Shown: positions 6,599 through 7,522 of the stretch, in pieces | How positions within the stretch are numbered: position 1 is the stretch's first letter | Layout: every line of letters begins with the position of its first letter | Virus record (IMG/VR): IMGVR_UViG_3300021594_000952 | Coordinates: 1 to 63,285 of that record | DNA length: 63,285 nt | Reading direction: 5' to 3' (one strand) | Source: a virus | Translations under genes and position numbers: made by a program | Notes under the pieces: model-generated | Database searches by the model: none | What the model was told of the DNA's origin: nothing | Seen by the model: the letters and a program-made list of their open reading frames with translations, nothing else

Positions 6599-6981
6599 AA
6601 TGTAAGAGTTCTTAACGGGTTAATATTATCCTTTAAGTACTTGTTTTGACGCTAATTTATCTAATCTAGAGTCAACGTAGCGTCTAGTTTCCTCTATTTG
6701 GTTCATTATGGTTTTTTCTACCATTGTGACATCTCGTCCACATTTTTCGAACTCCCTCCAAATATTTTGGTGCATTTCATCAATATGACGATGTATATCT
6801 TCTACATCACGCATGTAGTTGTTTTTAAATGTATGTAAATCTGAGTTTAACTTACTGATCTTAACCATACCCACAACAATAACAGATATAATAATTACTG
6901 CTACAATCGTAAGCATACCTAAAACGAATGATGTTATTTCCATGTTTTCTAGTTTTTAAAATGTCAAAGAACTCTTACATT
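6599..6981. repeat. 15-bp perfect inverted repeat flanking a gene
   Basis: AATGTAAGAGTTCTT at 6599-6613 and its exact reverse complement at 6967-6981 bracket the membrane/coiled-coil gene at 6626-6943. The arms are too far apart for a terminator hairpin. They could be protein-binding sites, remnants of a mobile cassette, or arms that pair in RNA. Confidence 0.7.
6626..6943 (-). CDS. Single-pass membrane protein with coiled coil
   Basis: 105 aa. A strong hydrophobic N-terminal segment (residues 5-28) is followed by a charged helical region (residues 30-95) with heptad-like spacing, ending DSRLDKLASKQ. Predicted to be membrane-anchored with a cytoplasmic coiled coil. The whole gene is bracketed by a 15-bp inverted repeat. 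Function unknown. Confidence 0.7.
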   Translation of the reverse strand: MEITSFVLGMLTIVAVIIISVIVVGMVKISKLNSDLHTFKNNYMRDVEDIHRHIDEMHQNIWREFEKCGRDVTMVEKTIMNQIEETRRYVDSRLDKLASKQVLKG

Positions 6982-6993
6982 ATTTTATTTATG

Positions 6994-7065
6994 TATTCGG
7001 TACGGGGTTCGAACCCGTGCCTCCGCCGTGAAAGGGCGGCGTGTTAACCACTTCACTAACCGAAC
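6994..7065 (-). tRNA. tRNA-Glu (anticodon UUC)
   Basis: 72 nt cloverleaf. The acceptor GTTCGGT pairs with ACCGAAT (one G-U), the anticodon stem is CCGCC-CTTTCAC-GGCGG with TTC, and the T-arm is CGGGTTCGAACCCCG. It directly follows the structured RNA on the same strand, with only 2 nt between the tRNA and the first RNA helix. Confidence 0.95.
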
Positions 7066-7408
7066 ATAACCCCTAGCAGTTTCTATTGATCAAGTAGACC
7101 ATCTAGGGGTTGGTATTGGTTATATGAGTGTCTATAGAGGCAACGCGTTTGCACCTATAAAGCACCTCAACTTCCCAACACTCAAAAAGACCATCTGAGT
7201 GGGCAGATCTAACGGTATGCCCGATGGTACTTGACCTGTAGATTCTATCTACAGGGGGGTTCAAACTCTAGAACCGGAGAACTAGAGGGTTCCAACATTT
7301 TCATGTTGGTGAGGCAAAAGACCTACCCTGGTACGCTCGATCGCGGTCACCACAGTCCAGAAGCGTGGTAGGTACTGTTTTGGTATACGTATTGTACTCG
7401 GAGATGGT
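7066..7408 (-). ncRNA. Probable large structured RNA, no family recognised
   Basis: About 340 nt with no credible coding frame but at least seven strong helices. They are 7068-7076/7103-7111 (9 bp), 7125-7131/7178-7184, 7190-7195/7223-7228 with inner 7201-7205/7218-7222, and 7235-7243/7247-7255 (9 bp). Further helices are 7266-7271/7282-7287, 7292-7298/7303-7309 and 7321-7327/7367-7373. Within the last domain 7328-7331/7357-7360 and 7333-7337/7362-7366 would form a pseudoknot. The 7292-7309 hairpin is capped by GAAA, a GNRA tetraloop, only when read on the - strand, matching the direction of the adjacent tRNA-Glu. It does not match RNase P, tmRNA, SRP or group I cores that I know. Large ornate RNAs beside phage tRNAs (GOLLD, ROOL) are a setting precedent only. 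Confidence 0.7.
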
Positions 7409-7522
7409 TTAGTATTCTTCTTTTTTCTTTGTTTTAGCTTTTGGATATCCTTTTTGTTTAGATGCCCACGAAACCCAACTTTGGAGTGTTTCGATTCTTG
7501 CTTTAGCTGATGTTTTACTCAT
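7409..7522 (-). CDS. 37-aa basic peptide
   Basis: Opens MSKTSAKARIETLQSWVSWA and ends in a Lys-rich tail (KAKTKKKEEY). It lies immediately upstream of the structured RNA. Coding is suggested by the clean frame and strongly charged composition; a nucleic-acid-binding peptide is possible. Function unknown. Confidence 0.5.
   Translation of the reverse strand: MSKTSAKARIETLQSWVSWASKQKGYPKAKTKKKEEY

Follow-up and report, generated by a model that had tools for sequence, protein, structure and literature searches.

The window analysed here is a 63,285-base virus record from IMG/VR, whose proteins suggest a T4-like phage infecting Bacteroidota. On its minus strand, an open reading frame (ORF) of 37 amino acids (aa) is followed by a gene-free stretch (7408-7066) and then, without a gap, by a gene for tRNA-Glu. 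The tRNA and RNA region is bordered by this ORF (7409-7522) and by a small membrane-type protein of 105 aa (6626-6943). Here, we describe the structured RNA of the gene-free stretch and its apparent kinship with the antitoxin RNAs of the AbiF abortive-infection system. The first-pass annotation had claimed an RNA of about 340 nucleotides (nt), at 7066-7408. Conservation covers ~310 nt of it, from 7378 to 7069, and positions 7379-7408 are less certain. GC content rises locally up to 0.46-0.49. From the 5′ end, the parts of the RNA and the adjoining tRNA are as follows (R2 is a model of the two-helix module, introduced below).

7316 to 7378, minus strand: module A, a two-helix module of the AbiF-antitoxin type (R2, 52.1 bits, E 6e-11)
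7292 to 7309, minus strand: optional hairpin CCAACAU-GAAA-AUGUUGG with a GNRA loop (folding; same or varied in L292, L202 and L289)
7266 to 7287, minus strand: optional hairpin CUCUAG...CUAGAG (folding; also in L190, L292, L297 and L490)
7235 to 7255, minus strand: optional hairpin CCUGUAG...CUACAGG (folding; varied copies in L203, L205, L289, L290 and L293)
7185 to 7233, minus strand: core module, the second of the AbiF-antitoxin type (R2, 37.5 bits, E 3.5e-7; covariation in 56 phage sequences)
7113 to 7181, minus strand: hairpin P3 with the conserved internal loop GAA../..AUAA (alignments and covariation)
7070 to 7109, minus strand: hairpin P4 (CCCCUAG...CUAGGGG) with a conserved internal loop and a GAUC loop (covariation)
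6993 to 7065, minus strand: tRNA-Glu, beginning directly 3′ of the RNA (ARAGORN and Rfam)

In module A, the helices are P1 (CUACC/GGUAG) and P2 (ACGCU/AGCGU), J2/1 reads UACCAG and the tail GUCUUUU, and the loop is larger than in other copies. The core module consists of P1 (ACCAUC/GAUGGU), P2 (GGGCA/UGCCC) and the loop UACCGUUAGAUC. The long variant of P3 carries the cap GCAA-ACGCG-UUGC.

Relatives of the RNA were retrieved from uncultivated phages. BLAST of the whole records that encode relatives of the UvsX-like phage protein yielded three clear homologs. One of them (G042, 82% over the 3′ half) sits between tRNA-Met and tRNA-Gln, and the other two (G034 and G037) between tRNA-Ala and tRNA-Gln. 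Scans of IMG/VR for conserved-loop patterns added many further relatives, from dozens of uncultivated phages, and none among isolate phages. With the region and four relatives as queries, BLAST against 50,697 isolate phages likewise returned only tRNA or chance matches, and a P4 pattern scan of genome contigs gave only chance matches in coding genes. The covariance model R1, built from 42 phage sequences including the window, had 68 matches in 73 loci, four matches (one weak) in 50 whole records, and no match in other phage loci (0.92 Mb); its E-values, as those of R2, are rough. The additional P1/P2 module and the three hairpins that the window has 5′ of the core find similar counterparts, as tandem modules or hairpins, in six loci (L203, L205, L245, L264, L292 and L524). 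Stand-alone modules lacking P3 and P4 also occur in phages, adjoining tRNAs.

The first-pass annotation had placed a structured RNA on the minus strand, and both folding and covariation agree. Compared with shuffled sequence, the minus strand folds with a z of -5.1 (none of 100 shuffles was as good), and the plus strand more weakly, with a z of -2.5. Among 56 distinct phage sequences, 86.2% of the cells form standard pairs, versus 67.9% after shuffling, double-sided (compensatory) changes are found at 27 of 29 pairs, and no shuffle reached the covariation score of the real alignment. Kinship among the sequences inflates such counts; slid controls, in which the partners were moved by 1-3 columns, retain this kinship, yet collapse to 29-40% of cells paired and lose the signal. 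A mutual-information scan recovered most pairs and brought up extra ones within P3 and P4, and the covariation of P4 includes one additional pair inside the internal loop. By this covariation, the fold of the phage RNA core, in the order P1/P2 module, P3 and P4 from the 5′ end, is shown to be real, and its extent across 56 distinct sequences argues for ongoing selection on the RNA.

The helices listed in the first-pass annotation thus hold up, as a pair of two-helix modules, three simple hairpins (of which one is GAAA-closed) and the long P3 and P4; the compensatory changes it proposed as a check are present throughout the core. Its pseudoknot in the upstream module (CUGG with CCAG) found no support; relatives do not share a pairing of the module A loop with J2/1, and the mutual-information scan brought up no pseudoknot. 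Its view that no coding frame explains 7066-7408 agrees with the 56 aligned relatives, in which frames are mostly closed and lengths fall in all residues modulo 3. The helices are nested hairpins, and Rfam gave no ribozyme match (theta, a hepatitis delta virus-like double pseudoknot at a tRNA 3′ end, was considered). A kissing-loop dimer via the palindrome UGAUCA of P4 was discarded, as the loop is GACG in many relatives.

The link to AbiF emerged from bacterial genomes. A search of 297 Bacteroidota genomes with R1 had one match, to the P1/P2 module, located between a helix-turn-helix gene and hsdR (L430). There, the module is followed by a hairpin that Rfam scored as abiF RNA just below threshold (30.4 bits versus 37, E 9e-4); a phage relative, L541, matched the same family, RF03085, with 20.3 bits versus a threshold of 37. 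Since this abiF-motif hairpin occupies the place of P4 in both loci, P4 may be a further, diverged abiF motif. The module recurs in the genus of L430, where three copies (L443, L444 and L447) directly precede an Abi_2 protein with the HEPN motif RNFCAHH. That of L443 matches PF07751 (Abi_2) with 186 bits. This protein matches PDB entry 8VZ6 ('Abi family protein') over its full length. A review describes the entry as the complex of PbAbiF with a non-coding RNA (ncRNA) and gives AbiFr as the RNA that inhibits the RNase (PMC12737573).

An independent draw pointed the same way. With PF07751, eight Abi_2 genes were taken from 118 Bacteroidota genomes regardless of any RNA, and R1 matched upstream of four of them (L448, L450, L451 and L453; E ≤0.07, 118 kb). 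R2, built from 13 bacterial and phage sequences, none from the window, matched upstream of five of the eight, three of those five being among its own sequences. In the R2 alignment, 95.5% of the cells are paired and double changes occur at 8 of 12 pairs. Module P1 shows compensatory changes between phage and bacterial copies, and the topology P1-(A)-P2-11/12 nt loop-P2′-6 nt-P1′ is found across both. R2 detects both window modules (7316-7378 and 7185-7233) and matches 47 of 396 Bacteroidota genomes. Its 30 best loci, four of which contain sequences used for building it, were inspected; one contig ends too early, and Abi_2 lies downstream in 22 of the 29 informative loci (19 by a strict rule, and L479, L482 and L485 by eye). 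Taken together, the sequence comparisons make a strong case that the window modules are homologous to the RNAs upstream of abi_2 genes. The RNA can be called undescribed in that Rfam does not contain it: on this stretch, even at E 10, only the neighbouring tRNA reached meaningful scores. It is not of a wholly unknown kind, its repeated module being an AbiF-upstream RNA.

In phages, the toxin gene is nearly always missing from the neighbourhood. The bacterial-type module has 62 distinct occurrences in viral contigs, 59 of them with enough flank, and Abi_2 is downstream of only one (L500). Compared with the Bacteroidota loci, the contrast is pronounced (Fisher p 1e-13; 4e-11 under the strict rule). 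Furthermore, no Abi_2 (PF07751) was found in the 34 phage records holding the RNA (the window and 33 others), which are partly fragments.

What the viral copies have beside them instead is often a tRNA. The first-pass annotation had noted that the RNA lies directly against a tRNA, which applies to tRNA-Glu in the window and extends to the relatives, usually located within tRNA arrays; 28 viral module copies are within 450 nt of a tRNA. In 29 of 55 distinct loci, a tRNA or tRNA-like gene follows the RNA at a distance of 60 nt or less, in many of them only 3-16 nt beyond P4, and an upstream tRNA ends within 20 nt in 12 loci. The downstream gene is varied: tRNAs for Glu, Gln, Gly, Thr, Arg, Met, Ser and Trp, odd tRNA-likes, and unrelated ORFs. 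A U-run follows P4 in 18 loci, 13 of which have no nearby downstream tRNA or tRNA-like gene (Fisher p 0.02). This fits a separate RNA, whose ends would arise either through tRNA processing or at a terminator of its own, and in the window an RNase P cut at tRNA-Glu probably generates the 3′ end. In related phages L162 and L163, ORFs akin to the small flanking ORFs of the window adjoin the RNA. Synteny with a neighbouring HAD protein was uninformative, because its relatives (L002-L081) carry no RNA near the HAD gene. A transfer-messenger RNA is encoded in the same tRNA region in several of these phages (L272:5088-5466, L278:10313-10690 and L286:2684-3038).

Because an antitoxin-type module is carried without its toxin gene, we consider it likely, though well short of certain, that this is a toxin-less, tandem AbiF-antitoxin-like phage RNA for counter-defence, which disarms AbiF during infection. 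The ~310-nt minus-strand ncRNA (7378-7069), with its two modules, three hairpins, P3 and P4, is predicted to be stable. It would be transcribed together with the phage tRNA genes, presumably early and abundantly, with its 3′ end set by tRNA processing in the window and by P4 and the U-run, acting as a terminator, in relatives without a following tRNA. The phage RNA would then bind the AbiF HEPN RNase of the host in the manner of its cognate antitoxin. Once host transcription of the unstable antitoxin ceases, AbiF would stay inactive and abortive infection would fail. Expression, AbiF binding and the antitoxin activity are inferred, and the proposed action follows by analogy from two cases. In Clostridioides difficile, the RNA RCd22, which contains two abiF motifs, binds AbiF directly and thereby neutralises it, in trans as well as in cis (PMC12373285), and phage PhiTE escapes ToxIN via a phage-encoded pseudo-ToxI RNA (PMC3475682). 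Linkage to tRNA arrays could, speculatively, reflect a joint protection of translation against RNases.

Several observations weigh against this interpretation. The J2/1 of the core module differs from the bacterial one, which could impair binding, as could the enlarged loop of module A in the window. Nothing corresponding to P3, with its strongly conserved GAAUAGCCCAAGGCAUAA, was seen in the bacterial loci, which points to a further function. The RF03085 gathering score is not reached, the window giving no match even at E 10; for this reason, and for want of a toxin of its own, we label the RNA AbiF-antitoxin-like and do not assign it to the abiF family of Rfam. Since the phage records are fragmentary, some of the genomes possibly hold an AbiF gene elsewhere. 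Finally, bacterial copies of the module are without abi_2 in 7 of the 29 informative loci; possibly, these are orphan antitoxins in defence islands. Bacterial copies of this kind are L445 and L446 (both beside a Fic protein), L441/L462, L469, L480 and L481, and a look at the sequences suggested hsdR (L462), a HigB-like gene (L481), an ATPase-like ORF and putative toxin-antitoxin genes among their other neighbours.

The conservation of the phage-specific parts could also mean that the RNA was exapted, with an AbiF-derived module but the whole RNA in another trans role, for example in binding a ribosomal or tRNA-processing partner. The invariant 18-mer, P3 and P4 occur only in the phage form, where their conservation is high, and the strong linkage to tRNA arrays would suit such a role. 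However, the loop and P1/P2 features are unchanged relative to the bacterial AbiF loci although the stems drift, which suggests the same binding partner, and stand-alone modules without P3 and P4 also lie beside phage tRNAs; we regard exaptation as rather unlikely. A role in cis, in which the RNA would serve the tRNA downstream as a leader, a terminator or a signal for processing, is suggested by the short distance between P4 and the following gene and by the U-run elsewhere, but is improbable given how widely the identity of that gene varies. Moreover, a terminator needs no two-module fold upstream, and homologous modules precede abi_2 in bacteria.

A toxin gene may also once have been present and lost, leaving a functionless remnant of an AbiF toxin-antitoxin locus that was phage-borne for superinfection exclusion. 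Abi_2 is still downstream in viral contig L500, and intact AbiF systems are carried by C. difficile prophages (PMC12373285). Yet covariation across 56 distinct sequences indicates continued selection and the RNA turns up in tRNA arrays repeatedly and in unrelated contexts, making a remnant very improbable. Hardly any weight is left for the RNA belonging to, or being an analogue of, the large ornate RNAs of phages, such as GOLLD and ROOL, and acting as an RNA-only assembly. Phage origin and location at tRNA islands are shared with these (PMC12286853), but there is no Rfam match, the size is one third to one half, and the modules are homologous to AbiF-linked RNAs.

The tRNA arrays contain further unusual genes. 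Families of tRNA-like genes have near-constant acceptor, D and T arms (AGTCAGGTGGCGGAATTGGTAGACGC ... CAGGTTCGAATCCTGTCCTGACT), and a variable insert of 30-110 nt replaces the normal anticodon arm. They are found in L242:7183-12206, L197, L191, L269, L202, L188 and other loci, with at least 10 genes in one locus, and a 26-mer scan added L304-L380, the 26-mer being present in at least 120 viral stretches. ARAGORN overlooks most of these genes. At its end, the T4 gene rnaC (L303:1409-1547) has a T arm and an acceptor like those of tRNAs (CCGGGTTCGAATCCCGG, followed by CGTTTCGTA), the latter with a compensatory change in related phages, and therefore the T4 species 1 RNA may be of the same tRNA-like kind. 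The rnaC-rnaD region matches 774 isolate phage records, and many of those listed are unannotated there or carry a 'hypothetical protein'. We tentatively suggest, as a doubtful but coherent possibility, that large phage tRNA arrays are composite counter-defence islands, combining intact tRNAs as substitutes for cleaved ones, RNA mimics of antitoxins directed at HEPN RNases such as AbiF, and the tRNA-like RNAs with a replaced anticodon arm, which would be decoys for tRNA-cleaving or tRNA-sensing defences.

AbiF, regarded as the ancestor of Cas13, is a HEPN toxin of abortive infection that is widespread and kept under control by an RNA antitoxin. If phages commonly carry the toxin-less RNA, they would possess a broad, pre-existing RNA counter-defence within their tRNA arrays, in stretches which annotation pipelines treat as empty. 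It would also give a reason for the unexplained stable RNAs in tRNA clusters, a puzzle since the T4 species 1 and 2 RNAs.

As for known systems, the literature searched mentioned neither the composite RNA nor its occurrence across tRNA arrays nor its link to AbiF in Bacteroidota. As the first-pass annotation had recognised, the RNA is neither GOLLD nor ROOL, for lack of an Rfam match. Its comparison with RNAs of that type fits less well than a type III RNA antitoxin; GOLLD and ROOL are likewise phage RNAs near tRNA islands (PMC12286853), but larger and with other folds. The T4 species 1 and 2 RNAs (rnaC and rnaD) are similar in being stable, 120-140 nt long, and located in the tRNA cluster of a T4-like phage, few nt from tRNAs. 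Homology to rnaD, considered for a short similarity and the position, was rejected, as R1 matched neither rnaC nor rnaD with filters off. In the T4-like cyanophage S-CREM1, Rfam predicts a single abiF small RNA (PMC9964418), which differs in that it is no composite RNA but a short RF03085 hairpin, located close to manA/wcaG elements.

The closest likeness is to AbiFr and RCd22 (RF03085). The two-helix topology (P1, one A, P2, a loop of 11-12 nt and 6 nt on the 3′ side) is shared, RCd22 also has two motifs, and homologous modules lie directly upstream of abi_2 in Bacteroidota. Unlike these antitoxin RNAs, the phage RNA scores below the Rfam threshold, is found in phages without the toxin gene, is embedded in tRNA arrays, and has its tandem modules fused to P3 and P4. 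In function, it would resemble the pseudo-ToxI of PhiTE, a phage-encoded RNA that imitates a type III antitoxin in the absence of its toxin (PMC3475682), although toxin family and RNA fold are different. Furthermore, PhiTE needed a repeat expansion to escape, whereas the RNA of the window looks long established and widely conserved.
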